This document shows positions 31,132-46,910 of a stretch of DNA of 64,000 nt, piece after piece. A program made the translations under genes and the position numbers. The stretch's first letter is position 1, and every line of letters starts with the position of its first letter. The stretch covers positions 1 through 64,000 of the forward strand of contig MVRS01000047.1 of assembly GCA_002067975.1 (NCBI GenBank), read 5' to 3'. This DNA comes from Syntrophorhabdus sp. PtaU1.Bin058. GTDB taxonomy: Bacteria > Desulfobacterota > Syntrophorhabdia > Syntrophorhabdales > Syntrophorhabdaceae. The notes under the pieces were generated by a model, which was not told the origin of the DNA, did not search any database, and saw nothing but the letters and a program-made list of their open reading frames with translations.

Positions 31132-31545
31132 CTACCAGTTGGTACATACAGGGTCCGTTGCGGGGGAAGAACCCGTACATGCGATTTGCCCCGGGCTCGA
31201 CGGAAGGGACACCCCGCTCAAACCAAAGGTATATTGACGGTTTTGAATTGTAATAGTATAACTGGGTTCAGCGAGTACACCAGGAGAAATACCTTGCAGT
31301 TGAGTGTTGGTTACAATATCGCTCATTGTATATGCAGTGGAATCATTTTTTAAGTTCTTATTGGCGAAGAGTATACTGATAGACCCGCGAAGCGCTGACA
31401 GCACACCTTTTGCCGTTGCGTCGGCAGCTTGCTGTTGTATCTCCTGATATTTCGGAATTGCCACCGCTGCAAGAATGCCGATGATGATGATGACGATGAT
31501 AAGCTCGATGAGGGTAAAACCCCTCTGGTTCCTTAATGCCTTCAT
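31132..31545 (-). CDS. Type IV major pilin-like protein (PilA/MshA type)
   Basis: 137 residues. Leader MKALRNQRG, cleavage before FTLIELIIVIIIIGILAAVAIPKYQ, Glu5 present: textbook type IVa pilin. A short globular part ends with a disulfide-size loop (IACTGSSPATDPVCTNW), as in PilA/MshA. Preceded by CCAGGAGGATTGAT as ribosome site and by a sigma54 promoter at 31606-31623. Its position after pilB, pilC, pilS and pilR marks it as the main fibre subunit of the type IVa locus. Confidence 0.93.
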   Translation of the reverse strand: MKALRNQRGFTLIELIIVIIIIGILAAVAIPKYQEIQQQAADATAKGVLSALRGSISILFANKNLKNDSTAYTMSDIVTNTQLQGISPGVLAEPSYTITIQNRQYTFGLSGVSLPSSPGQIACTGSSPATDPVCTNW

Positions 31546-31920: not shown

Positions 31921-33276
31921 TTATATATTGGTATCTATCTCGTACTTCTTCACCCTGTACCACATGCTCCGCTCTGAGATGCCAAGGAGCTTTGCCGCCT
32001 GCGCCTGTGAGCCCTGGGATTTTTTAAGGGCCTCTGTGATCATATTCTTCTCGAGCTCCGAGATCGCTTCGTCCAGCGTTTTATCCGAATAGGTCTGACT
32101 CGCCAGTGGGAACCCGCCTTTCAGGTAAAGAGGCAGATCGTCAATAGTAATTGTGTCACCGTCACACATCACAGCGGCCCTTCTGATAACACTTATCAAC
32201 TCCCTTACATTTCCGGGCCAGTCATATTGAACCATTAGCTCATGCGCGTCTTCGGCGATATTGATGATCCTGCCGGATTCCTTTTCAAATTCCAACAGAA
32301 TATATTCGATGATGGCATCGATGTCCTCTTTCCTTTCGCGTAATGGCGGAACGTGTATTTGCATCTGTGACAGGCGGAAGTAGAGGTCTTCCCTGAATTT
32401 GCCGTTTTTTGCCTCATTTTCGAGGATACGATTTGTTGTCGATATGACCCTAACGTCAACTTTATTTGTTTTTGTTGAACCAAGGTGTTCGATCTCTTTT
32501 TTTTCTACTGCCCGTAATAACTTTGCCTGGAGGTATGGGGTCATCTCTCCTATTTCGTCGAGCACGATTGTTCCGTTGTCCGCGGCCTCAAACTTACCCT
32601 GTTTCTGCTGGTGTGCACCGGTAAAGGCACCTTTCTCATGTCCGAACAGTTCGCTCTCAAGGAGGGTATCGGGTATGGAGGCGCAGTTGACTACAACGAA
32701 GTTGCCTTTCCGTTGAGAAAAACTATGAAGGAGTTTCGCGACCTCTTCTTTACCGACCCCGGTCTCCCCTGTAATGAGAACGGTCAGTTCTGTAGCTGCA
32801 ATCTTTTCAATATCCTTAAAGATGTCTCTCATCTGACGGGACCTTCCCACAACACCATGAACCATATCGTTCGCAAGCTCCTTTTCTCTCAGGAGCTCCA
32901 TTTCTTTTTTTAATTTCCTGGTGCCGAGGATCCTCTTGACAATTATCTTCAGTTCGTCAAGCAGGATAGGCTTCACAAAAAAATCCGTCGCGCCCCGTTT
33001 GATTGCATCAAGGGCATTCTTTTTTGTCCCATAGGCCGTAATGATGAGGATCGGCACGTTTACGTTCTTCTTGAGATCGGACGTGGCAGCCAAGCCGTCC
33101 ATGCCCGGCAGGCTGATGTCCATTATGACAAGGTCTGTTTCATCGTTGATTGCGCTTACAGCATCCTCGTATGCGACAAAAGACAGGACAGAGTAGCCTT
33201 CATTCTTCAAGGCCTCTTCGAGAAAGAACCGCACGCCAGGGTCGTCTTCGATTATCACAATTTGATTAGCATTCAT
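31921..33276 (-). CDS. pilR: Sigma54-dependent response regulator (PilR-like)
   Basis: 451 residues: REC (~1-120: VIIEDDPGVR, Asp in DLVIMDISLPGMDG, Lys in TDFFVKPIL), AAA+ (~140-370: Walker A TGETGVGKEEVA, the sigma54 loop EKGAFTGAH, Walker B GTIVLDEIGEM, arginine finger region FREDLYFRLSQM) and a Fis-type HTH (GSQAQAAKLLGISERSMWYRV). Activates sigma54 promoters; the only one found nearby is that of the pilin immediately downstream. Coupled in function with the histidine kinase at 33455. Confidence 0.92.
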   Translation of the reverse strand: MNANQIVIIEDDPGVRFFLEEALKNEGYSVLSFVAYEDAVSAINDETDLVIMDISLPGMDGLAATSDLKKNVNVPILIITAYGTKKNALDAIKRGATDFFVKPILLDELKIIVKRILGTRKLKKEMELLREKELANDMVHGVVGRSRQMRDIFKDIEKIAATELTVLITGETGVGKEEVAKLLHSFSQRKGNFVVVNCASIPDTLLESELFGHEKGAFTGAHQQKQGKFEAADNGTIVLDEIGEMTPYLQAKLLRAVEKKEIEHLGSTKTNKVDVRVISTTNRILENEAKNGKFREDLYFRLSQMQIHVPPLRERKEDIDAIIEYILLEFEKESGRIINIAEDAHELMVQYDWPGNVRELISVIRRAAVMCDGDTITIDDLPLYLKGGFPLASQTYSDKTLDEAISELEKNMITEALKKSQGSQAQAAKLLGISERSMWYRVKKYEIDTNI

Positions 33277-33454: not shown

Positions 33455-34519
33455 TCATAATGTGCTCATCCCACTCACGATGTCTTCTTGCAATTTCATT
33501 TCAGGCAGGACTATGGTAAACGTTGTCCCTTCATCGCCGCTCTCCACTTCAATGGTGCCTCTATGGAGGCGCATATTCCTCATACCGATAAAAAGACCCA
33601 GCCCACGGCCGCCTCTCTTCCGTGAAAAGAATGGTTTAAAGATGGACTCAAGATCATCCTTCCCGATCGTGGAGTGCCTGTTGTAAACGGAGACACGAAA
33701 AGAAGTATTAATTTTTTCTGAGGATATTTTGATGAAACCGCCGGGCCTTTCATGCTCAACTGCATTTCTCAGGATATTGCTGATAACCTGAAAGATCTTT
33801 GTCTTATCTGCAACGCACACGAGGGAACCCTTTCTCTCAAACCGGCACTCAATGCCTTCCAGTTCAGGAGAAAGGCTTCCCATGGCATCTTCGACAACGT
33901 TGTTCAGATCAAACTCTTCCCTGACAAGTTCATTGTCGGTGAAGTCAAGCAGGTCATGGGTAAATTTATCTATCTTTTTTGCCGCTTCGAGCATTGCGTT
34001 AATATACGCCAGCTGCGATCCATCCGTTGACTTCTGTCTTAAAAGTTCGCTCATCCCCGTTATGGTATTTAAGGGGTTTCTGACCTCGTGGGCAACCATA
34101 AGGGACATATATCCGAGGGGAATAATGTAATCGAGTCTCTCCATGCTCTCCATCAATGTTCCCTTGTCTCCCCCATCGGTCTCCTTCTTAACGTGTTCCA
34201 TAAGGCGCTCGATAAGGTTGTACACCTCGATCATCTGCCCCCGTTCTTTCCTTAATTCCTCGAACTTTACAAATTTCTCTGCCTGTTTCACCAGGTCGTT
34301 GATAGGCTGGATCATGGCCCTCACCACGATAAACGCACAGAACGAGGAGAAAAGACAGACAACGACTACCCACATCCATGCAGTATGCGTGCGCACGGCA
34401 ACCGTAAGGACATTTGCGCCTATGACAACAGAGAGGAGGCTTGTAAGAAAGACCACAAGCGGAACGATCGTGTTGAGGCTGTACTTCAGGTTGCTTGGAT
34501 CCCTGAAAAAACCTTTCAA
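33455..34519 (-). CDS. pilS: Sensor histidine kinase (PilS-like)
   Basis: About 354 residues from a TTG at 34519, overlapping the pilC stop (TTGA) and preceded by GAGGGGGGCC. A longer frame runs inside pilC and is spurious. Two membrane helices (~18-40, TIVPLVVFLTSLLSVVIG; ~50-70, WVVVVCLFSSFCAFIVV), a HAMP-like linker (QPINDLVKQAEKFVKFEEL), the H-box MVAHEVRNPLNTITGMSEL, N-box VISNILRNAVEHE, F-box IFKPFFSRKRG and G-box GRGLGLFIGMRNMRLH. Only two helices, fewer than the six of Pseudomonas PilS, and no PAS domain. Confidence 0.87.
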   Translation of the reverse strand: MKGFFRDPSNLKYSLNTIVPLVVFLTSLLSVVIGANVLTVAVRTHTAWMWVVVVCLFSSFCAFIVVRAMIQPINDLVKQAEKFVKFEELRKERGQMIEVYNLIERLMEHVKKETDGGDKGTLMESMERLDYIIPLGYMSLMVAHEVRNPLNTITGMSELLRQKSTDGSQLAYINAMLEAAKKIDKFTHDLLDFTDNELVREEFDLNNVVEDAMGSLSPELEGIECRFERKGSLVCVADKTKIFQVISNILRNAVEHERPGGFIKISSEKINTSFRVSVYNRHSTIGKDDLESIFKPFFSRKRGGRGLGLFIGMRNMRLHRGTIEVESGDEGTTFTIVLPEMKLQEDIVSGMSTL

Positions 34520-35742
34520 CCGGCCCCCCTCATTGCGCTCATCATGTCCCACCACGGCATGAATATAGCGAGGGCGAGGAACAGGACCATAACGGAAAGG
34601 CCTGCCGTGAGTATAGGCTCTACCCACGCCGACAACCTTGTAACAGAGTATGCGACCTCCCTGTCGTAGTGCGTGGAGACTTCCTTCAGCATCTCTTCGA
34701 GGGCGCCCGTCTCCTCGCCCGTCGAGATAAGGTGTATCACAAGGGGCGGAAATATCCCCGCATCTCTCAGGGGTTTTGAGATACCCCGTCCTTTCTCTAT
34801 GTTCTGACCGATCTCAATAACCTTCTGTGCGATATAGTTGTTGCCCACGGTCCTGGACACAATCTCCAGGGTCTTTACAATAGGGATGCCTGCCCTTACA
34901 AGGTTCTCAAGGGTAAAGGCAAACCTCCCCATACATATCTTCAGGACGATCTGGCCCACAAGGGGTATCTGCAGTTTGATCCTGTCGATGGTCATTGCGC
35001 CGTTGGCCGTCCTCTTATAAAGGATAAAAAGCACAATGGCAAGCACAATGGCGCCGATAGTAAAGACTGTATATTTCTCGGCAAGATCATTTATCAGGAG
35101 CAGTATCTGCGTAGGGAGAGGGAGGGCAATCTTTGCGTTCTTGAACATAGGGACAAACTTCGGAACCACCATCTTTATCAGCACGACAAAGGCAATGACA
35201 AGGGTGCTCACCACGAACAAGGGGTAACGCATAGCAGATTTGAGCATCTCTTTCGTCTTCATCTGAAACTCGATAATGCCCGCAAGCCTTTCAAGCACCT
35301 CTTCTAAGCTGCCGCCGGCCTCGCCTGCGCTGACCATGCTGATGTAAAGTTCAGAAAAGATGCCCTTGTGTTGTGAAAGGGCCTCTGAAAGGCTCTGGCC
35401 TCTGTCTATGTCCTGGGCTACCGTCTTGATCGCCGCCTTCAGTTTCGGACTTGTGGTCTGCTCTTCGAGTGCCCTCAGGCCGGCAACTACGGGTATACCT
35501 GCCCTGATGATCGTCTGGAGCTGTCTCGTGAAAAATATCAGGTCGTCATATTTGACCTTCTGGAACCGCAGCAGGAAATCATCGGCAGCGAATGAAGCGG
35601 CAGTTTTTGTCTCTTTTGCGGAGACAGGGAAAAGCCCCATGGTATCGAGCTGGGTATAAACGTCCCGCTGGCTGGCCGCCTCCATGCTCCCCGTTACCAA
35701 AAGCCCCTTGTCGTCACGCGCCCTGTATGTGAATGTACTCAT
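34516..35742 (-). CDS. pilC: Type IV pilus inner-membrane platform protein
   Basis: 408 residues with two T2SSF domains: ~70-190 (FTRQLQTIIRAGIPVVAGLRAL, ISMVSAGEAGGSLEEVLERLA) and ~275-395 (FAFTLENLVRAGIPIVKTLEIV, VIHLISTGEETGALEEMLKEV), and membrane helices around 170-190, 220-245 and 375-400. N terminus STFTYRARDDKGLLVTGSME typical of PilC. Immediately follows pilB, separated by three bases. Confidence 0.94.
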   Translation of the reverse strand: MSTFTYRARDDKGLLVTGSMEAASQRDVYTQLDTMGLFPVSAKETKTAASFAADDFLLRFQKVKYDDLIFFTRQLQTIIRAGIPVVAGLRALEEQTTSPKLKAAIKTVAQDIDRGQSLSEALSQHKGIFSELYISMVSAGEAGGSLEEVLERLAGIIEFQMKTKEMLKSAMRYPLFVVSTLVIAFVVLIKMVVPKFVPMFKNAKIALPLPTQILLLINDLAEKYTVFTIGAIVLAIVLFILYKRTANGAMTIDRIKLQIPLVGQIVLKICMGRFAFTLENLVRAGIPIVKTLEIVSRTVGNNYIAQKVIEIGQNIEKGRGISKPLRDAGIFPPLVIHLISTGEETGALEEMLKEVSTHYDREVAYSVTRLSAWVEPILTAGLSVMVLFLALAIFMPWWDMMSAMRGAG

Positions 35743-35745
35743 TGT

Positions 35746-37446
35746 TTATTCTTCCTGTACCACGTTAAGCGCCTCTTCGAGCGTCGTAATGCCGAAGAGG
35801 ACCTTCATGACCGCATCGTCCCGCATGACCCTCATCCCTTTTTCATGCGCCCTCTTCTTGATGACCTCGCTCGGTGCCTTTGCTATAATCATCTCCCTCA
35901 ATTCGTCATCCATGACAAGGACCTCATAGACACCCGTCCTGCCTTTATATCCTTTGTATTTACATGACGGGCAGCCTTTGCCCCGGTACAGCAGGACGTC
36001 CTCTTTTATCTGGAATGTCCTGTGGACCGAAGGTGCAGGATAATAGGATTCCTTACAATCAGGACATATCTTCCGGAGGAGTCGCTGCGCTACCACGCAT
36101 GTAACGGAAGATGTTACGAGGAAGGGCTCAACACCCATGTCAACGAGCCTCATGATAGCGCTCGCGGCATCATTGGTGTGAAGCGTCGACAGCACAAGGT
36201 GTCCTGTAAGGGCGGAATGGATTGCGATGTTTGCCGTCTCCCCGTCACGGATCTCGCCAACCATAATGACATCGGGGTCCTGCCTCAGGATAGATCGCAG
36301 ACCGCTATCGAAGGTCATTCCCGCCTTCACATTGACCTGCGCCTGGGCGAGACCTTCAAGGGTATACTCAACGGGGTCTTCGATGGTGATGATGTTCTTC
36401 TCCGGTGAATTGATGTAATTAAGGATCGCGTAAAGTGTCGTCGATTTTCCGCTGCCTGTCGGACCCGTTGAGAGGATAAACCCGTAAGGTCTTTTCAGGA
36501 CATTCTTTATCTTTTCCTTGTCATCGAGGAGCAGTCCCAGGTTATCGATCCCGTAAAGCGCTGTGCTTTTATCGAGAAGTCTGAGGACGACCTTCTCACC
36601 GTGGATCGTAGGGAATGTGGAAACCCTGACACCGACTTCCTTTGTCGATTCACGGATATTAAATCTCCCGTCCTGGGGCGTCCTTGTCTTGGCTATATCT
36701 ATGCCTGCAAGGATCTTGATCCTCGACACGATGGGAAGAAAGAGCCTTTTTTCAGGGGTAGGTACGTCGCGCAGTCTGCCGTCGACCCTCATCCTGATCC
36801 TCATCTGTTTTTTTGAAGGCTCCACGTGGATATCGCTTGCTCCGTCTGCAAGGGCCTGCGCAAGAAGGCTGTTTACAAATCGCACCACGGGCTCATCTTC
36901 GATAAGGTCAGCGGAGATACGCTCATCGAGGTCTTCTTCTTCCTCCTCCTTAAACAACGTAACCTCATCGCTTTCCTTCATCTTTTCCAGGGTCTCTTCA
37001 ACAAGGGTTTTAAGTCCGTAATATTTCTCAAGGGCACGCTTCAACTCGCCTTCAGTGACGATAACAGGGTCAATCTCCATATTGACGAGCCTCGAGACAT
37101 CGTCCATCGCATCAATGTCAAGGGGGTCTACCATCGCAAGCTTCAGGACATTGAAAATCCTGTCTACCGGAATGATCATGGAGTTTTTCGCCATATCCGG
37201 CGAGATAAGTTTTGCGAGGTCTTCGGGGATCTCGATTTCGTCGAGATTGATAATCGGGATGCCGAGCTGTTTGCTGACGGTATCAATAATTTCTTTTTCC
37301 GAGAGAAGTCCCAGTTTGATAATAACCTTTCCGAGCTTGTCGCCATATTTCTTCTGTTCTGCAAGTGCCTTCAGAAGGTCCTTATCGCTTAATTTTTTCG
37401 CCTCCAGAAGAAGTTCACCAAGACGCTTACGAACTCTCTGTGCCAT
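35746..37446 (-). CDS. pilB: Type IV pilus extension ATPase
   Basis: 566 residues. MshEN domain at the N terminus (LGELLLEAKKLSDKDLLKALAEQ, INLDEIEIPEDLAKLISPDM), then N2 and the ATPase core: Walker A GPTGSGKSTTLYAIL, Walker B DPDVIMVGEIRDGETA, His box TGHLVLSTLHTND, zinc motif CPDC ... CPSC near the C terminus. A TATAAT box lies 33-38 bp upstream (37479-37484) with a weak -35, so it may start its own transcript after the hairpin at 37521-37580. Confidence 0.95.
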   Translation of the reverse strand: MAQRVRKRLGELLLEAKKLSDKDLLKALAEQKKYGDKLGKVIIKLGLLSEKEIIDTVSKQLGIPIINLDEIEIPEDLAKLISPDMAKNSMIIPVDRIFNVLKLAMVDPLDIDAMDDVSRLVNMEIDPVIVTEGELKRALEKYYGLKTLVEETLEKMKESDEVTLFKEEEEEDLDERISADLIEDEPVVRFVNSLLAQALADGASDIHVEPSKKQMRIRMRVDGRLRDVPTPEKRLFLPIVSRIKILAGIDIAKTRTPQDGRFNIRESTKEVGVRVSTFPTIHGEKVVLRLLDKSTALYGIDNLGLLLDDKEKIKNVLKRPYGFILSTGPTGSGKSTTLYAILNYINSPEKNIITIEDPVEYTLEGLAQAQVNVKAGMTFDSGLRSILRQDPDVIMVGEIRDGETANIAIHSALTGHLVLSTLHTNDAASAIMRLVDMGVEPFLVTSSVTCVVAQRLLRKICPDCKESYYPAPSVHRTFQIKEDVLLYRGKGCPSCKYKGYKGRTGVYEVLVMDDELREMIIAKAPSEVIKKRAHEKGMRVMRDDAVMKVLFGITTLEEALNVVQEE

Positions 37447-37582: not shown

Positions 37583-38626
37583 CTATTTGATGTATTCACT
37601 GACATTCGCATTCATCAACGCATCTTCACGGGTTATGATGCCTTTTTTCAGCAGCTCGCTCAGATTTTGTTCCATCGTATGCATGCCGTATTCTTTCCCC
37701 ATCTCGATCTGCCCGTAAAGCTGATAACTCTTTGCCTCCCGTATCAGGTTCCTCAATGCCGGCGTCGCTATGAGGATCTCCGTAGCCGGTATCCTCCCTT
37801 TCGCATCGGCACGCCTCAAAAGCTTCTGCGTGATCACGGCCTGAAGGGTGATCGAAAGCTGAGACCGTATCTGTGCCTGCTGATGGGGCGGAAAGACATC
37901 GATGATCCTGTCAATGGTCTGGGAGGCGTTTGTTGTATGGAGCGTGGAAAAGACAAGATGCCCGGTCTCGGCGGCGGTTATGGCAGCCTGCATTGTCTCC
38001 AGATCCCGCATCTCGCCGATGAGGATTACATCGGGGTCCTGTCTCAATACATGCCGGAGCGCCAAGGAGAACGACTTGGTATCGTCGCCTATCTCCCTCT
38101 GGGAGATAATCGCCTTTTTCGCCGTATATGCGTACTCGATCGGGTCTTCCACCGTGATAACATGGAGCGACCTCTCTTCATTAATAAGCTCAACCATCGC
38201 GGCGAGCGTTGTCGATTTGCCGCTTCCCGTGGGACCGGTCACCAGTACCAATCCGTTCGGTTTCCTGGTAAGCTCCTTCAGGATGACAGGCAGGCTGAGA
38301 TCTTCCAGCCTGGGCACGGCGAGCGGTATATGCCGGACCGAAAAGGCTATGGTGCCTTTCTGGTGGTAGACATTGATCCTGAAACGCCCGACATTTGTTA
38401 GTTCATAGGAAAAATCGAGTTCCTGGTCTCTGCGAAAACGTTCTTTTTTTACCTGATCAACAACGATCTCATCAAAAAATTCCCTCATATCCTTGTGGTA
38501 TATCGCGTCCTCATTCAGGTAGGTCAGCTCCCCGTTTCTCCTTATGGCAGGCGGAATACCGTCGATGAGATGCAGATCAGAGGCCTCTTGTTCGACCATC
38601 GTATACAACATCTTTATAATACTCAA
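37583..38626 (-). CDS. pilT: Type IV pilus retraction ATPase
   Basis: 347 residues. N terminus IIKMLYTMVEQEASDLHLIDGIPPAIRR (PilT N-domain), Walker A GPTGSGKSTTLAA, Asp box, Walker B DPDVILIGEMRDLETMQ, His box TGHLVFSTLHTTN and the C-terminal hallmark ALRNLIREAKSYQL (AIRNLIRE motif). Retracts the fibre by disassembly, giving twitching motility or DNA uptake. The ATPase paralogue at 38636 lies 9 bp upstream. Confidence 0.95.
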   Translation of the reverse strand: MSIIKMLYTMVEQEASDLHLIDGIPPAIRRNGELTYLNEDAIYHKDMREFFDEIVVDQVKKERFRRDQELDFSYELTNVGRFRINVYHQKGTIAFSVRHIPLAVPRLEDLSLPVILKELTRKPNGLVLVTGPTGSGKSTTLAAMVELINEERSLHVITVEDPIEYAYTAKKAIISQREIGDDTKSFSLALRHVLRQDPDVILIGEMRDLETMQAAITAAETGHLVFSTLHTTNASQTIDRIIDVFPPHQQAQIRSQLSITLQAVITQKLLRRADAKGRIPATEILIATPALRNLIREAKSYQLYGQIEMGKEYGMHTMEQNLSELLKKGIITREDALMNANVSEYIK

Positions 38627-38635
38627 TGGCGCACC

Positions 38636-40195
38636 TCACAAAAAAAAGATATTATCAAAGGAGATCTCCTTTATATCCCCGTCAAACAGAAGCATGTAGA
38701 ACTTCACGGTCCTGTTTGTGTATATCTGCGGTATCTGTATTGTTATTGTATGCCAGTTTCCGTCCTTAATCAAATCAAGCGGCCTTTCGGTCAGCTCGTA
38801 ATCATTTTTGCTGTCTTCAAAAACCCTCACCTTGAAGGCATAGACGGGTTTTTCGATCTTTGTCTCCAGTATCTTGTATGAGATGTTCAGAAAGGATTTG
38901 AGCCTGAAAGGGTCCTTCTTTCCATTGAGTATGGTGTAATCAGCGGCAAAATGGTAGGGACCTTTCAACGTTCCCGTATCCCTGAACAGAAAACCGACAG
39001 GCGTACTGAAAAGCCTTCCCGAAGCGTCAAAGGAACTTAAGTTCGTGACGCTGAGGTCCGCCTGGTAGACCGCAAGGTCTTTTTCAAGGGCCATTATGCC
39101 CCGTGTCGTCGAGATCCCGTCTTTTGTCGGCTTTACATCGGCAATATCCTCGATGAATTTACTGCTCCTCGATGAGTGGGCAATCGCCTGTGCGACATCG
39201 ATTACGCCCTGTTTACTGAGCATTCGCAACGATTCGTCGAGGGATGTCATCCCCTCGTTCTTCGAAGTATCAAGGATCGTGACGATCTGGTGGATCTTGT
39301 CTTCCCTGATGAGGTTCCTGATCGCCGGGTTGACCTTCATAACCTCACAGGCGCAGACACAGCAGGTCGCATCGGTCTTCAGCAATAACCTCTGGGAGAC
39401 CACGGCCCTCAGGACATTTGCGATCTGAATCCTCGCCGTATTCTTTTCCTGGTCCGGGAAAAAGTCCATTATCCTGTTTATCGTTTGCGCAACATTAAGG
39501 GTATGGAGTGTTGAAAACACGAGTGCCCCTGTCTCGGCGAGCTCCAGCGCCGCTCTCATGGACTCTCTGTCCCTGATCTCCCCGACAAAGATAATGTCGG
39601 CATCCTCACGGACTATCCTCCTTAATGCGCCGGAAAACGATTTTGTATCTCTGCCGATCTCTCTCTGGCTGACGATCGATCTCTTCGGCCTGAAGACAAA
39701 TTCTATCGGATCCTCTATGGTAACGATATGGCACATCCGCTCCCTGTTGATCATCTCAAGGAGAGCGGCAACGGTCGTCGATTTGCCGCTTGCTGATGGA
39801 CCTGTTACCAGTATCAGTCCGCTGCGGTATTTTGTAAATCCTTTTAAAGAATCCGGCAAGCCGAGTTCGTCAAAAGAAGGCAAGGCGTCAGAGACGGGCC
39901 GGACAACTATCCCGAGTGAGCCGCGCCTCATAAATGCACACATCCTGAACCTTCCGAAGCCACCCATCTCGTATGTGTAGTCGAGCTCGTTGTCTTTCGT
40001 AAAACGCTCAAACTGCATCTCTGTAGTCGTGCCCTGCAGCAGTTCAACGATATCGTTATTTGTTAAAGGCTCTTTGCTCAGGCGGGTGATACCGCCATTA
40101 CTGCCAAGGGGAGGGAATCCTTCAAAGAAAAAGACACTCTGTACTCCCTGATTGATCCCTCTTTTAACGACGTTCAGGATTCCGGTTCTCTTCAA
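38636..40195 (-). CDS. PilT-like ATPase with extra C-terminal beta-sandwich domain
   Basis: 519 residues, about 150 more than PilT/PilU. Residues 1-345 are PilT-like: a divergent N-domain (VQSVFFFEGFPPLGSNGG in place of ASDLHL), Walker A TGPSASGKST (usually GPTGSGKST), Walker B DADIIFVGEIRDRESM, His box TGALVFSTLHTLN and AIRNLIREDKIHQI at ~291. Residues ~370-519 form an unrelated beta-rich domain (YHFAADYTILNGKKDPFRL, WHTITIQIPQIYTNR, ISFDNIFFL) resembling carbohydrate-binding or discoidin-like sandwiches, odd for a cytosolic motor. Start overlaps the GspB/TPR gene by 32 bp. Confidence 0.85.
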   Translation of the reverse strand: MKRTGILNVVKRGINQGVQSVFFFEGFPPLGSNGGITRLSKEPLTNNDIVELLQGTTTEMQFERFTKDNELDYTYEMGGFGRFRMCAFMRRGSLGIVVRPVSDALPSFDELGLPDSLKGFTKYRSGLILVTGPSASGKSTTVAALLEMINRERMCHIVTIEDPIEFVFRPKRSIVSQREIGRDTKSFSGALRRIVREDADIIFVGEIRDRESMRAALELAETGALVFSTLHTLNVAQTINRIMDFFPDQEKNTARIQIANVLRAVVSQRLLLKTDATCCVCACEVMKVNPAIRNLIREDKIHQIVTILDTSKNEGMTSLDESLRMLSKQGVIDVAQAIAHSSRSSKFIEDIADVKPTKDGISTTRGIMALEKDLAVYQADLSVTNLSSFDASGRLFSTPVGFLFRDTGTLKGPYHFAADYTILNGKKDPFRLKSFLNISYKILETKIEKPVYAFKVRVFEDSKNDYELTERPLDLIKDGNWHTITIQIPQIYTNRTVKFYMLLFDGDIKEISFDNIFFL

Positions 40196-41258
40196 GGAAC
40201 CTTAACCTCTCTATAACTTCCTTTCGCGCCTCAGGGGATTTGACGGTACTGAGGTACTGCCTGTAGTATCTTACCGCGTCTTCAGTTTTGCCCATTGTGT
40301 CTTGAATGATTGCATAGGACAGAAAAAGGGCCGGGTTCCTTACCTTCTTCCCGATGGGGACATTGAGGAGCCTGGAGGCTTCGTCCAGTCTCCCGTTTCT
40401 CCTTAAAAGTGCCGAAAGGTTCAGATAGGGCTCGATACTGTCGGGTTCCATGACGATCGCCTTTCTGAAATACTCCTCGGCGAGCCCTGCATCGCCTTCA
40501 CTCATCATCAGGAGGCCTATGTTGTTGTATGCCTTTGGATAATTTTTCTGAAGATCAAGTATCTTTTTAAAATAAAAAAGCGCTTCTTTTGAATTCCCTT
40601 CCTGGACGGCAATAACGCCGAGATTATTCAGGGCCTCGACATGGTCCGGTTTTATGGCGAGGACGGCGCGGTATATCCTCTTCGCCTCGCCTGAATGGCC
40701 TGTCTGGAGCGCCGCTGCAGCCTCGTTGTACAACAAATTGGCCTTTTCGTTATCTGTTGCCCTTGTGACAACCTTTCCGTCTTCTTTTAGTTCCCCGGTC
40801 TTTTCGGCAGGCCGCGCAGATGCTGCCATTTTCACCGGCATTGTCTTTGCCGGAATATCTTTTATCTTCTTCCTGTCCCCGGCAACGGTCTTTCGCGGGG
40901 CAGCAACAGATACCTTTTTTTCTTCAGGTGCTGCCTCGGTTACTCGCAATGGAGCTTGCTTTACCGGAGCCTGCTCTTTTTTTACAGCCTCTGCATCGGG
41001 TTTTTGAGACGGCGTTTCGATCTTTGCAACCTGCTGTTTCGGGGAAGCAGGCGGGATAATGGCCACTTTAGTCTGTTTCGGACTTTGGAATGCCGGGACA
41101 AAAAGATAGCCCAGCACAACAAGGACGCAGACGAGCAGGATCCCATACACAAGGAACCTCGATTTCTTCTTTGGACCAGGCAGATTAAAGGGGACACCGG
41201 GAGCAGTCTTCTTTCGCTCCTTTTGGGCCTTTTTCAGTGCATCGAGGATTATGCTCAT
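40164..41258 (-). CDS. GspB-like membrane TPR protein
   Basis: 364 residues. MSIILDALKKAQKERKKTAP is the GspB/ExeB N-terminal signature; then one membrane helix (~34-54, FLVYGILLVCVLVVLGYLFV), a Lys/Ala/Pro-rich stalk (~60-165) and TPRs (~172-355: ANLLYNEAAAALQTGHSGEA, AYNNIGLLMMSEGDAGLAEE, LFLSYAIIQDTMGKTEDAV). It is fused from parts otherwise found in GspB and PilF/PilW-type pilotins, and probably helps secretin assembly. In operon with pilQ (4-bp overlap). Confidence 0.85.
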   Translation of the reverse strand: MSIILDALKKAQKERKKTAPGVPFNLPGPKKKSRFLVYGILLVCVLVVLGYLFVPAFQSPKQTKVAIIPPASPKQQVAKIETPSQKPDAEAVKKEQAPVKQAPLRVTEAAPEEKKVSVAAPRKTVAGDRKKIKDIPAKTMPVKMAASARPAEKTGELKEDGKVVTRATDNEKANLLYNEAAAALQTGHSGEAKRIYRAVLAIKPDHVEALNNLGVIAVQEGNSKEALFYFKKILDLQKNYPKAYNNIGLLMMSEGDAGLAEEYFRKAIVMEPDSIEPYLNLSALLRRNGRLDEASRLLNVPIGKKVRNPALFLSYAIIQDTMGKTEDAVRYYRQYLSTVKSPEARKEVIERLRFLEENRNPERR

Positions 41259-42739
41259 TTTTCAGCCTTATCGTATATGATCCGTGGCGTCAGGAACACT
41301 ATAAGTTCGGTGGTCTTGCTCTGTTCCGTACTCGATTTGAAGAGATAGCCGAACAAGGGGATGGAGCTGAAAAGCGGTATGCCCTTTTCATCATTATATT
41401 TTGTCTCGTATAGAATACCGGCGATAATGACTGTCTCGCCGTCCTTTACCCGTACGATGGTGTCTGTTTCTCTTGTAGATATTACAGGAACTGTCCCTTT
41501 GGAATTAGGGTTAGGCGAGTTGACGGAGCTGTCCTTGGTCGAGTAGATGGGATGGATGCCGAGGATAATGTTGCTTTCATTGTCGATCTGCGGAATGACG
41601 TCGAGGACTATCCCGACGTTCATGAACCTCGGACTATAGGTTGCGATAGTGGCAGCCCCTCCTGTCGAAGATTGCTGCTCTTCGAAATAGACATCCTGTG
41701 TTGTCGATTTGATGATCGCCCGCTGGTTGTTAAGGGTCGCAATCTTAGGCGTTGCAAGCACCTTCGTTTCACCCTGTGCCTTTAAAAGATCGATATAGGT
41801 GTTTGTAATGTTCAACTCCCCCGAGGCCTCCGAGCCGACATAGAAACGAAAATATTCGGTATAGTCTCCCAGGAAATTTGCAGGCGCGGGGAAACTCTGT
41901 GTGGCGCTGATCCTTCCGACACTCCCGAGTCTCGAGTTGACAAGTTGCCAGTTTACGCCCATCCTGAAACCCTCTGACAACTTCACTTCAACTATCTTTG
42001 CCTCAATCATGATCTGCCTGTGCATGGTCCTTTCAATATTTTCCAGAAACATCGATACGCGCTTTAAATTTCTCGGGTAGTCCGTTACCATTATTGTAAA
42101 CGTCTGTTTGTTGATAATAAGCTTCCCGTCGGCAGACAATATGGCCTTCAGATTATCTTCAAGGCTTTTCCACAGGTCTGATTCGGTCTCGCTTTTTACT
42201 TCAAGGGTTTTTGTTTCCGAACTTGTTGTTCCTCCTGTGCTCGATGTGCTGGAGGTGCCGCCGCTTTTCCACTCGACCGTGCTCGTGCCGATCTTCTTTA
42301 AGGCAAGATAATTGATCGTAAATATCTTTGTTTCTATTTTCGGCTTCGAGGCATAAATAGTCCTGCCCTCAATCTTGTATGCAAAACCAAGCGGCTCCAG
42401 GATATATTCCAGCGCCTTTTCAAGGGTCACGTTCTTCAGGTCGACGGTCGTTACCCCCTTCACATCCGGCTCAGTCACCACATTATAATTTGTCTGTTTC
42501 GCGATGGCCCTGAGGATATCCTTTACGTCCGCTTCCCGCAACGAGAAAGAGAAATAATCCTGGGGCCCGGTGCTGTCGGGCGCTTTTGCCTTTTCCATCT
42601 GGAAGGATACCGGGCTCGGGATATCAACCGGTTTTGCTGCCGCCTTGGCCTCCTCAGGCTTCTTCTCTTTCGCCTGATCAATATGCGCGCAGGATACCAG
42701 GACAAGCAACATTACAACAAAAATAAGTCCTTTTTTCAT
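41255..42739 (-). CDS. pilQ: Type IV pilus secretin
   Basis: 494 residues with a lipoprotein signal (lipobox VLVSC, Cys17) unlike the Sec signal of classical PilQ. An STN-like domain (~62-130: DYFSFSLREADVKDILRAIAKQ, GVTTVDLKNVTLEKALEYILE), an N1 domain (TIMVTDYPRNLKRVSMFLENIE) and the secretin C-domain (~290-485: GETKVLATPKIATLNNQRAII ... GIPLFSSIPLFGYLFKSSTEQ ... ELIVFLTPRII). No AMIN domain. Outer-membrane pore for the type IVa fibre. Overlaps pilP by 4 bp. Confidence 0.94.
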   Translation of the reverse strand: MKKGLIFVVMLLVLVSCAHIDQAKEKKPEEAKAAAKPVDIPSPVSFQMEKAKAPDSTGPQDYFSFSLREADVKDILRAIAKQTNYNVVTEPDVKGVTTVDLKNVTLEKALEYILEPLGFAYKIEGRTIYASKPKIETKIFTINYLALKKIGTSTVEWKSGGTSSTSSTGGTTSSETKTLEVKSETESDLWKSLEDNLKAILSADGKLIINKQTFTIMVTDYPRNLKRVSMFLENIERTMHRQIMIEAKIVEVKLSEGFRMGVNWQLVNSRLGSVGRISATQSFPAPANFLGDYTEYFRFYVGSEASGELNITNTYIDLLKAQGETKVLATPKIATLNNQRAIIKSTTQDVYFEEQQSSTGGAATIATYSPRFMNVGIVLDVIPQIDNESNIILGIHPIYSTKDSSVNSPNPNSKGTVPVISTRETDTIVRVKDGETVIIAGILYETKYNDEKGIPLFSSIPLFGYLFKSSTEQSKTTELIVFLTPRIIYDKAEK

Positions 42740-43299
42740 TTCGCCCTCTCCGTACCTTTTGTTTTCGGCGTTTCTTCCTGGGTTACCATGTCCTCTATCT
42801 TTACCAGGTTGAGTACTCTCTTTAAACCGCCCCGAACGAGTATCACCTTGTCTTTTTGTATATCCTGTACCTTCTCGCCGCCTACCATATCGCCTTTCCT
42901 GACGACCTCGTGGTCAATGATCGCGACCCGTTCGTTTCCCTTTTCCATGATGGCAGCCAGCTTGAAGGTGACCTCCTGTGCCTCCCCAAACCTTTTCCCC
43001 TCTTTGGATTTCGGCGCGAGGAAGGGGTCCCGTGTCCATGCAACACCGAGTTTATCGAATTGCTCTTTATCGAATTGCTGCGGCATCTCTGCCTTTCTAT
43101 CTTTGGAAGGGATGCCCGGCATAACTGCACCGGGCTTTGCCGGTGTCCCTGCGGGTGCTGCCTGCACGGGCGCCCGGGCCGCCGACGCTGCTGCCGGCAC
43201 AGGTGTGGGTGTCTTCTTCTTGCCGGTAAAAAATTGAATATATCCGGCGAGGAGTATCCCCAGGATGCCTATGATAATAACCGGTTTACTTACCTTCAA
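42736..43299 (-). CDS. pilP: Type IV pilus assembly protein PilP-like
   Basis: 187 residues: an N-terminal helix (~6-22, VIIIGILGILLAGYIQFF), a Pro/Ala-rich linker (~28-60) and the PilP beta-domain (~80-175: VAWTRDPFLAPKSKEGKRF, AIIDHEVVRKGDMVGGEKV, VILVRGGLKRVLNLVKI). The uncleaved-helix N terminus differs from the lipoprotein PilP of Pseudomonas. Bridges PilN/PilO to the secretin. Confidence 0.87.
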   Translation of the reverse strand: MKVSKPVIIIGILGILLAGYIQFFTGKKKTPTPVPAAASAARAPVQAAPAGTPAKPGAVMPGIPSKDRKAEMPQQFDKEQFDKLGVAWTRDPFLAPKSKEGKRFGEAQEVTFKLAAIMEKGNERVAIIDHEVVRKGDMVGGEKVQDIQKDKVILVRGGLKRVLNLVKIEDMVTQEETPKTKGTERAK

Positions 43300-43843
43300 A
43301 GATCTTCCCCTTCAATGCCTTGAACTCTATAGTATATCTGCCGGCCACCGTAGGATATTGTTTTTCGTTATAGGAGATCCGCGCCTTTTGAATGCCCTTG
43401 AATGCGATCCTTTTTGAAAGTTCCTCCAAGAATCTTCCCGTCTCAAGGAATCCGCCTTTTAACTCAAATTCAAAGACAGGGTTGATGACATAAGACTTCT
43501 GTTCCGTATCGATCGTGGAATGGATGCCGGCCACGTTGTCTACTATCACCCCCCGGTTCCGGGCAGCCTTCTCTATCTCCCTGATGAAATCGGGCATCTT
43601 CTCGATCAGGGGCGCCTTCGTCTTGAATTCAACCAAGGACTCTTTCCATTTCTCATCGGATTTCGCCTGCTGGGATATTGTTATGATCGATGCCTCTACC
43701 TGCTTCCTCTCCTGCTTCACGGATTCCAGAGATATCTCCCGGCTCTTGACCTGAGAGGAAAACGGCAGATACACGGCAAATACCCAGATGATAATGAGGG
43801 CAAGCGGCATGCCGTACCATATATAGATCGACTTAAATCTCAT
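43286..43843 (-). CDS. pilO: Type IV pilus assembly protein PilO-like
   Basis: 185 residues with one membrane helix (~9-29, YGMPLALIIIWVFAVYLPF), a coiled coil (SREISLESVKQERKQVEASI) and the PilO ferredoxin-like domain (MPDFIREIEKAARNRGVIV ... EFELKGGFLETGRFLEELSK ... TIEFKALKG). Forms the periplasmic heterodimer with PilN, here the C-terminal half of the upstream fusion. Overlaps neighbours on both sides. Confidence 0.88.
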   Translation of the reverse strand: MRFKSIYIWYGMPLALIIIWVFAVYLPFSSQVKSREISLESVKQERKQVEASIITISQQAKSDEKWKESLVEFKTKAPLIEKMPDFIREIEKAARNRGVIVDNVAGIHSTIDTEQKSYVINPVFEFELKGGFLETGRFLEELSKRIAFKGIQKARISYNEKQYPTVAGRYTIEFKALKGKIFEGK

Positions 43844-45458
43844 ATCTCATACACCGCGAGGTGATGGTAAACTCCATGACCTGTTTGCCTTTCAGTGTTT
43901 TCATCTCTTTGCCGACAAGCTCAACATTCTGGACAAGCCCCGATTTTTTCAAGGTAAGCATGAGGTTAAACAATGTCAATTCAAGGCTGTCCGCTTCCCC
44001 TGTGATATAGCCCTTTAATACCAGCGGGTAGTCGTTTCCCGATGTCTTCGCCGGGGCCTGTCCGGGTCCCGGGGCCGCCATGGAAACAGGTACGCCCTTC
44101 CCTACGGGAACCGGTGGCGGGAGAAGCTGAGTAGAGGCAGGGGCTGCCGGCGCCTGAGCGTTTTCGCCAAATTCGATTGATTTGAGATACACGTCCCGCG
44201 GTATCTGCGAAGCGAGGAACTTGAGGAGGGTGACAAATGTAAGGTCCTTCTTCTGGATCTCGTTTTTGACCGTCAGAACCTCATTATAGTTCACGGTGCT
44301 CCGGGGAACGACGGCGATCTTCTTGATCCCTTCTTTTATCTTTTCGAGATTGCCCCTTTCAAGGGTGAGCTTCAGGTTGGCGTTGCTCAACGTACCCCAC
44401 ATGGTAAACGTTAAAAGGAGAAGTATTACCACAACGCCGATCGTCCCGAGCACGATCAGATTCTTGTATGATCTTTCCTTGCCCTTTTGCAGCACCCGCT
44501 CAGGCAAAAGGTTTGGAAACCCCGTTCTGCTTACGGCCAGCGTATATGCCGGTATATACTCCGGTTTGATATCGGACACGCTCTCAAGGGATGACACTTC
44601 CTCAACAAGGGATTCCTTCATCCTCTCGAGGAATTTCGGGATCTTCGATCCACGTCCCGATATAAATACCTTTGAAACCGGCTTACCGGGGTACCGCTGA
44701 TTATACACGCTTAAGGTTCTGAGGATCTCGCCTTCAAGCCTTTCGAAAGGCAGGCGCATTATCTCTGCGAGTTCCTCATCAAAACCCCTCTCGCGCTTAT
44801 ATTGTTCTGCCTGGTCATAGGAAAGTCCCGGTCCGCTCATCAGCGCGTCAGAAAAGCTCTCAGAGGCCGTGAGGATCTCCCGCGCAAACATGAGCCTTTT
44901 TGCATTCGCAATATAGAGGCCTGTCCTCCGTCCACCGACATCGATAATGGCCGTCGACGTATCTCCGTTCTCATCTATCGCATTGATGTATGCAAATGCG
45001 GTGTCGGTAATCACGGCAACGTCATGGAATCCGACGCGCTCAAAGATAGAAAGGAGGCTGTTGATGTAACTCTTGGGCGCCCCCACAAAGAGGATCTCAT
45101 CCTTATTGACCCCCTTCTCGTCGATCTCCCCGAGCATCAGGTGCTCATATATCATATCGTCGAGGGGCGTGGTCAGGATCTTAGTGGTAGACCAGTTGAG
45201 GACATCCTTTTGTTCCTTTTTCGGAAGGATCGGGATAGTGAAGGTCTTCTTGATGATCTCCTGGGAGCTTATGCCTACGGCAACCTCTACATCGTCCCCT
45301 TCCTTGATCTTGATGTCAGAGAGTATCATCTCAAGGTCATCAAAACCGCCTTTATAGGGATAATCGCCTGATGAGATCACGGACCAATTACCTGAGGTTC
45401 CTTTGACCTTTACGTACTTTACACTGACGGTCCCTATGTCTATGCCTAAGATATCCAC
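43833..45458 (-). CDS. PilM-PilN fusion protein
   Basis: 541 residues from a GTG at 45458 with AGGAAGG upstream. Residues 1-310 are PilM: DILGIDIGTVSVKYVKVKG (phosphate 1), STAIIDVGGRRTGLYI (phosphate 2), VSKVFISGRGSKIPKF (adenosine). Residues ~325-541 are PilN: membrane helix (LIVLGTIGVVVILLLLTFTM), coiled coil, then a ferredoxin-like domain interrupted by a Pro-rich insert (~445-485, QAPAAPASTQLLPPPVPVGK). In most type IV systems these are two proteins joined by a short peptide. First gene of the pil operon. Confidence 0.88.
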   Translation of the reverse strand: MDILGIDIGTVSVKYVKVKGTSGNWSVISSGDYPYKGGFDDLEMILSDIKIKEGDDVEVAVGISSQEIIKKTFTIPILPKKEQKDVLNWSTTKILTTPLDDMIYEHLMLGEIDEKGVNKDEILFVGAPKSYINSLLSIFERVGFHDVAVITDTAFAYINAIDENGDTSTAIIDVGGRRTGLYIANAKRLMFAREILTASESFSDALMSGPGLSYDQAEQYKRERGFDEELAEIMRLPFERLEGEILRTLSVYNQRYPGKPVSKVFISGRGSKIPKFLERMKESLVEEVSSLESVSDIKPEYIPAYTLAVSRTGFPNLLPERVLQKGKERSYKNLIVLGTIGVVVILLLLTFTMWGTLSNANLKLTLERGNLEKIKEGIKKIAVVPRSTVNYNEVLTVKNEIQKKDLTFVTLLKFLASQIPRDVYLKSIEFGENAQAPAAPASTQLLPPPVPVGKGVPVSMAAPGPGQAPAKTSGNDYPLVLKGYITGEADSLELTLFNLMLTLKKSGLVQNVELVGKEMKTLKGKQVMEFTITSRCMRYEI

Positions 45459-45707: not shown

Positions 45708-46910
45708 TCATTTCATCAGCACCTCAACATCCATAGACAGGAACTCATTAAGCGGGATGCCCCCTGTACCTACAAGGAGTTTCTTTTTTGCAGGAAAGGT
45801 GCGGGTGAAAGATTCTAATCCCGGCAAAGCTGTCCTCGCTCTCCCGCTTTTAACTTCTATTGCGACAAGGTCATTCCCTTTCGCAAGGACAAAATCGACC
45901 TCGCGGTTCCGTTCAGCCCAGTAATACAATTGTATATCTTTTCCGATTATACTGTTCGCAAGCATACTCCCGACGGCAGTCTCCGCTAACCTGCCCCAAA
46001 GCTCACTGTTCCGTCTTGCCTCATCGTAGCTCAGATGCGACATTGCGGTCATAAGGGCGTTATTCAAGACAATGAGCTTCGGGCTTGACGCCCGTTGACG
46101 TACTGCCTGACCTGCATACTTCGGCAGGCCCATGACCAACCCCGAACCCTTAAGGAGGTCAAGGTAATGGGCGAGGGTGGTTGTATTGCCCGCATCCTGA
46201 AGCTGGCCTATCATCTTTTGATATGAAAGTATCTGACCGGAGTATAGGCATCCCAGCTCAAAAAGGCGTCGAAGTAAAGCCGGTTTGTCGATACGGACCA
46301 TGAGCAGTACATCCCTGGAAACGGTCGTCTCGATAAGGGAATCAAGAATATATTGCCTCCACCGTTGTTGATCGCTGATCAGCGAGGCCGAGCCGGGGTA
46401 GCCGCCATAATAAAGATACTGTTCAAGCTCCCATCCGAATGCGTCTCTCATCTCAGAATATGACCAGTGTCTCACCGGGATGATCTCGAACCGGCCCGCA
46501 AGGCTTTCCGTAAGCCCCTTTTGAATAAGCATCGGGGAAGAACCAAGGATGATCACATGAAGACGAACGTTCTTTGCCGTATCGTCGTCCCACAAACGCT
46601 TGACCGTTTCCGACCAGCCCGGGATCTTTTGAATCTCGTCCAATATGAGGATCCCTTTTCTTCGTGGTTTCCCGGGCGTTCCGATGCGCGCGGCCCCCCA
46701 TTGCTGCTCTATCCACAAACGATTCTTCGGGGCCGGCTCGTCGGCAGATGCATAGTATCCCGTTCCTGTTTCTTCCATTAATTGGCGTACAAGCGTTGTC
46801 TTGCCGGTCTGACGGGGGCCTGTAACCACCTGGATAAATCTCCGCGGTTCGGAAACCCGGCGCAATAGTACGCGGAAAACCGGTCTCTTATATGTGATAG
46901 TCCGCGCCAT
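45708..46910 (-). CDS. AAA_14/DUF4143 ATPase with nuclease-like C terminus
   Basis: 400 residues. Walker A VTGPRQTGKTTLVRQL, Walker B GILILDEIQKIPGW, arginine-rich sensor segment, then DUF4143 (~200-330: LFELGCLYSGQILSYQKMIG, TLAHYLDLLKGSGLV) and a C-terminal PD-(D/E)xK-like fold (REVDFVLAKGNDLVAIEVKSG). This large family is widespread on mobile and accessory DNA; the function is unknown and proposed to involve DNA handling or defence. It interrupts the pilus gene clusters and has its own operator-bearing promoter at 46919-46967, so it is an independent accessory gene. Confidence 0.88.
   Translation of the reverse strand: MARTITYKRPVFRVLLRRVSEPRRFIQVVTGPRQTGKTTLVRQLMEETGTGYYASADEPAPKNRLWIEQQWGAARIGTPGKPRRKGILILDEIQKIPGWSETVKRLWDDDTAKNVRLHVIILGSSPMLIQKGLTESLAGRFEIIPVRHWSYSEMRDAFGWELEQYLYYGGYPGSASLISDQQRWRQYILDSLIETTVSRDVLLMVRIDKPALLRRLFELGCLYSGQILSYQKMIGQLQDAGNTTTLAHYLDLLKGSGLVMGLPKYAGQAVRQRASSPKLIVLNNALMTAMSHLSYDEARRNSELWGRLAETAVGSMLANSIIGKDIQLYYWAERNREVDFVLAKGNDLVAIEVKSGRARTALPGLESFTRTFPAKKKLLVGTGGIPLNEFLSMDVEVLMK

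Follow-up and report, generated by a model that had tools for sequence, protein, structure and literature searches.

A diverged PilT paralogue with a C-terminal beta-rich domain, encoded beside pilT in an MSHA-like type IV pilus operon

Analysis of the window (the whole stretch of 64,000 nucleotides under study) revealed a gene for a PilT-family ATPase with a C-terminal beta-rich domain, here designated PilT', inside an MSHA-like type IV pilus operon and directly upstream of canonical pilT (Table 1). By analogy with PilU, and with a probability of roughly 0.55, PilT' is best explained as an accessory retraction motor that would work with the adjacent PilT, its tail serving as a docking or regulatory module. 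The regulation of pilus retraction is less clear than that of extension. PilT' is a lineage-conserved retraction-motor paralogue which, in the operons examined, was present only with a PilT partner, and the PilT'/PilT pair offers a natural system for testing the dependence of a second motor on PilT and a separate input to retraction. No description of this fusion was found in the literature searched, the coverage of which was partial.

Table 1. Features of the PilT' gene and of the surrounding pilus operon, in window coordinates.
Feature	Coordinates	Strand	Basis and remarks
Type IV pilin-like protein	31132..31545	-	model matches
NtrC-type response regulator	31921..33276	-	model matches
Sensor histidine kinase of the operon	33455..34627	-	model matches; start uncertain
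PilC/GspF platform protein	34516..35742	-	model matches
PilB/MshE-type extension ATPase, MshEN domain with c-di-GMP motif	35746..37446	-	NF053729, 56 bits (cut-off 38)
Canonical pilT, sister paralogue, adjoining PilT' downstream	37583..38626	-	TIGR01420, 457.8 bits
PilT' (PilT/PilU-family ATPase with C-terminal beta-rich domain)	38636..40195	-	519 aa, TTG start; ORF calling, TIGR01420, full-length orthologues
C-terminal domain, residues 363-519	38639..39109	-	predicted all-beta, without Pfam family; dN/dS 0.055 in the genus
Linker, ATPase to C-terminal domain	39110..39166	-	sequence; without transmembrane stretch
Walker B region GEIRD, residues 205-209	39569..39583	-	alignment; Glu to Asp in two orthologues
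Walker A GPSASGKST, residues 132-140	39776..39802	-	alignment; first G and GKST invariant, middle differs between genera
N-terminal domain, residues 1-105	39881..40195	-	SDLHL lost, RFR...F..RG stretch kept; alignments with orthologues and PDB PilT
Overlap of PilT' start with end of upstream TPR gene	40164..40195	-	32 nt
TPR protein, MshN-like position, N-terminus MSIILDALKKAQ	40164..41258	-	model matches
Secretin, best model MshL	41255..42739	-	224 bits, below cut-off 250
PilP/MshK-like protein	42736..43299	-	by position; GspC_delta 20.8 bits only
PilO-like protein	43286..43843	-	PF04350, 22.4 bits (cut-off 22)
PilM-PilN fused protein	43833..45458	-	PilM_2 and PilN matches

ORF analysis of the window confirmed positions 38636-40195 as one uninterrupted frame of 519 residues on the minus strand. 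An earlier reading of this DNA from its letters alone (the sequence-only reading) had reported about 150 extra residues after the ATPase and had itself named a frameshift or assembly join between the two parts as the finding that would overturn it; the extra part is present, at about 155-175 residues, and no internal stop was found in the window copy or in 16 other genomes. Because this fusion runs uninterrupted through independent genomes at 46-95% identity, and the tail is under purifying selection (below), an assembly join, a frameshift or chance read-through into an unrelated downstream frame was rejected as practically excluded. Most of the listed orthologues share the 32-nt overlap between PilT' and the TPR gene, which shortens to 26 nt in the two from the third family, and the TTG start recurs in the orthologues together with a purine-rich AGAGAGG-like stretch upstream of it, which doubles as coding sequence of the TPR protein. 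The gene order TPR - PilT' - PilT - PilB was the same across families wherever the contigs permitted it to be read.

The identification as a PilT paralogue was borne out by the PilT/PilU family model TIGR01420, which PilT' matched over residues 8-343 with 366 bits (curated cut-off 319.1; E=1.9e-109), and the ATPase part aligned over nearly its whole length with solved PilT structures (e.g. PDB 2gsz and 6ojx). The catalytic motifs described as retained, namely Walker A, the Walker B region GEIRD, the His box TLHT and AIRNLIRE, are all present in the window protein, the Asp box of which is IEDPIE. The alteration of the N-domain was likewise upheld, with QSVFFF in place of SDLHL, and the loss of SDLHL is common to all 16 aligned PilT' sequences. 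The unusual Walker A GPSASGKST is also as reported, although this altered form is genus-specific: other orthologues have GPTGSGKST, GPASSGKST, GPAGCGKST, GSAGSGKST, GPAGSGKST or GVTGSGKST. Across the aligned PilT' proteins the P-loop GKST, the Asp-box Glu and the His-box His are invariant; the Walker B Glu is replaced by Asp (GDIRD) in 2/16 sequences and the flank of this motif is changed to HEIRD in some orthologues. Given a changed Walker A, HEIRD or GDIRD, some of the orthologues may be inactive. The two proteins with GDIRD where the window PilT' has GEIRD (L018:637-2268 in G013, and L014 in G022) also carry extra residues inserted into the ATPase behind the FFP/FFG stretch, more of them in G013.

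In a tree of 57 PilT-family proteins the PilT' sequences (16 rows) were monophyletic (100/99) and the operon's PilT formed another clade (100/99), the two grouping together (99/95) apart from a PilT-PilU pair encoded at a different site in the window's genome, with longer branches in PilT' than in PilT. Since PilT' is thus sister to the operon's PilT and not to the genome's pilU, the tree indicates that PilT' stems from an ancient duplication in the pilT lineage of this operon and then diverged, and the same grouping led us to reject PilT' as a PilU orthologue. The separate pair is a second pilT-pilU set of the same genome and lies outside the pilus operon (L046:2510-4673, G000:C8). A further PilT-family gene, without the tail (L058:13850-14929, G020:C9), is an apparent chimera, its first 120 residues being nearer the PilT of G009, of the same genus, and its residues 241-320 nearer the PilT' of that genome; its product is probably catalytically dead because VDGIKD replaces GEMRD and TLRT replaces TLHT.

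A survey of the fusion elsewhere, which the sequence-only reading had proposed, was made across the order with one genome per species, contigs ending inside some operons, and found it in 16 further genomes, two copies being cut by contig ends. Within the genus, five other genomes carry the gene whole (90-95% identity) and a sixth has a copy truncated by its contig start (90%). Outside the genus, identity was 46-57%, with copies in other genera and two additional families of the order, one copy being truncated by a contig end; the ten orthologues taken from other genera for alignment to the window protein contained no stop. A profile of the tail matched 17 of the 46 order genomes, one copy each and always inside a PilT' frame, and across the phylum 10/395 genomes, all from the same order. 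The named relatives returned by a short-pattern search for the tail beyond the phylum sample were Syntrophorhabdaceae and other delta-proteobacterial MAGs, and tblastn of plasmids with the tail found nothing. Within the genus, dN/dS in the tail was 0.055, compared with 0.090 in the ATPase core and 0.072 in the neighbouring PilT, so the tail is under stronger purifying selection there than the ATPase; these low values and the stop-free copies establish the tail as a conserved domain.

Both PilT' and PilT, in that order and directly adjoining, were present in 16 of the 26 operons readable across the site, and neither in the other 10 (L066-L075), where PilB comes after the TPR gene and both are missing from the space between; no operon had one alone. 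In one of these ten, a frame of 107 codons that starts like PilT' (L071:9793-10116, G020:C26) is left over at this place, the rest of PilT' and PilT being absent. With 20 of these loci placed on a PilB-plus-secretin tree, the distribution of the pair requires at least six state changes, including changes between sister genomes in two genera. Such co-occurrence suggests that PilT' serves a purpose only alongside PilT; block deletion of adjacent genes can give the same pattern with no functional dependence needed. The repetition of the pattern raises the question of how this pilus operates where no retraction motor is encoded locally, and a separate pilT-pilU pair of the kind described above may serve it in genomes that do not have PilT' and PilT.

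PilT' residues 344-519 matched no Pfam family. No transmembrane stretch follows the ATPase (the 19-residue Kyte-Doolittle maximum after residue 340 is 0.81), and the tail is for this reason most likely cytosolic. The sequence-only reading had seen in it a ligand-binding sandwich and had suggested structure prediction: the AlphaFold2 model of the tail alone was all-beta, which agrees with a beta-rich C-terminal domain, at a low confidence (pLDDT 44) that the full-length model did not improve (48) and that is attributable to input alignments made up of fusion rows about 90% identical or more. The ligand-binding half of that description fared less well, since the best PDB profile match was a non-significant one to 3f95, a beta-glucosidase C-terminal domain (E=0.2), and hhalign against CBM_4_9, CBM_11 and CIA30 gave probabilities near zero (E 0.042-0.44), of which the value for CBM_4_9 (0.042) was slightly better than the reversed (0.2) and shuffled (0.79) controls and the others fell within the range of such controls. 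Foldseek matches of the tail model to viral haemagglutinins, CBM4, CBM61 and ephrin-receptor domains (TM <0.4, from a low-confidence model) were taken as uninformative. Compared with jelly-roll carbohydrate-binding domains (CBM_4_9, the ExoP C-terminal domain 3f95), the tail is weakly similar around D-x-x-W-H-T-x-x-I-P and in its beta-rich pattern but differs in having no significant profile match and in its probable cytosolic location; the ExoP_C domain was not found in 40 relatives or in 297 phylum genomes. A PilZ identity of the tail was discarded: PF07238 had no Pfam match in 12 members at E up to 10, the RxxxR / DxSxxG motif pair occurred in no member, and hhalign to PilZ was not significant. 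An MshEN identity (PF05157) was likewise rejected, the tail showing neither a profile match to it nor the RLGxxL motif.

The tail could be a true small-ligand sensor, binding a metabolite such as a sugar or a nucleotide and thereby gating the motor ATPase, so that retraction would answer a cytosolic signal. The predicted all-beta fold points in this direction, as do a D-x-x-W-H-T-I-T-I stretch like the equivalent one in jelly-roll carbohydrate-binding domains, polar positions conserved across families (D-x-S-G, R, D-Y and K) and the weak top matches to 3f95 and CBM_4_9; yet neither match is significant, the Foldseek scores stay below 0.4 on a low-confidence model, the tail contains no known ligand motif and soluble sugars would be unusual ligands for a cytosolic motor, so that we regard a ligand sensor as unlikely. 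The same doubt attaches to a retraction motor with a built-in sensory beta-sandwich, in which the binding of a metabolite or signal would switch the PilT-PilT' motor; if it were true, retraction would receive a direct input, mirroring the c-di-GMP control of extension via MshEN on the PilB of the same operon. PilT' might also be a paralogue in decay, with weak or absent ATPase activity, retained mainly as a structural or dominant-negative subunit that slows or blocks retraction. Its longer branches, its relaxed Walker A and Walker B flanks (with Glu to Asp in two orthologues) and the repeated gain or loss of the pair, with a remnant in one genome, are consistent with decay, but dN/dS of 0.03-0.10 in all segments within the genus and the invariant GKST, Asp-box Glu and His-box His argue that selection still holds PilT', and we consider degeneration improbable.

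In the preferred reading, as an accessory motor, PilT' would be a second, diverged retraction ATPase of the MSHA-like pilus, produced by the old duplication in the operon's pilT lineage and provided with its C-terminal beta-rich domain. It would form a hexamer at the pilus base that is active only in concert with PilT, like PilU in other systems, while its C-terminal domain would dock or regulate by linking PilT' with PilT, the platform or a cytosolic signal; such coupling would tune retraction, extension being driven by the MshEN-bearing PilB. PilU is the nearest functional parallel: it drives pilus retraction only alongside PilT (PMC6762196), and a requirement for PilT in attaining its active state has been proposed (PMC13142100). 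In the Vibrio MSHA pilus PilT supports extension too (PMC9815625), so that a PilT partner might influence extension as well as retraction.

The comparison with PilU is an analogy, PilT' being encoded upstream of pilT and not being a PilU orthologue. Each is a diverged second PilT-family ATPase beside a canonical PilT, with motifs retained but less strict and a presumed need for PilT, whereas PilT' differs in its separate clade, its position upstream rather than downstream of pilT, the loss of SDLHL and the added beta-rich domain. With canonical PilT (TIGR01420; PDB 2gsz, 6ojx) it shares a two-domain ATPase bearing Walker A/B, the Asp and His boxes and AIRNLIRE, as well as common ancestry with the operon's PilT, but it has an altered N-domain, a varied Walker A and the extra C-terminal residues. 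MshE/PilB proteins with the c-di-GMP-binding MshEN domain, one of which is encoded in this operon, are likewise pilus motor ATPases with a fused extra domain; there, however, the domain lies at the N-terminus of the extension motor and can be recognised by its motif, whereas the tail of PilT' shows no match to the domain or to that motif.

Between the pilus operon and minor pilin-like genes, the window also contains a frame (45708-46910, minus strand) with a P-loop ATPase-like N-terminus, GPRQTGKTTL, a close relative of which occupies the same place in L055.
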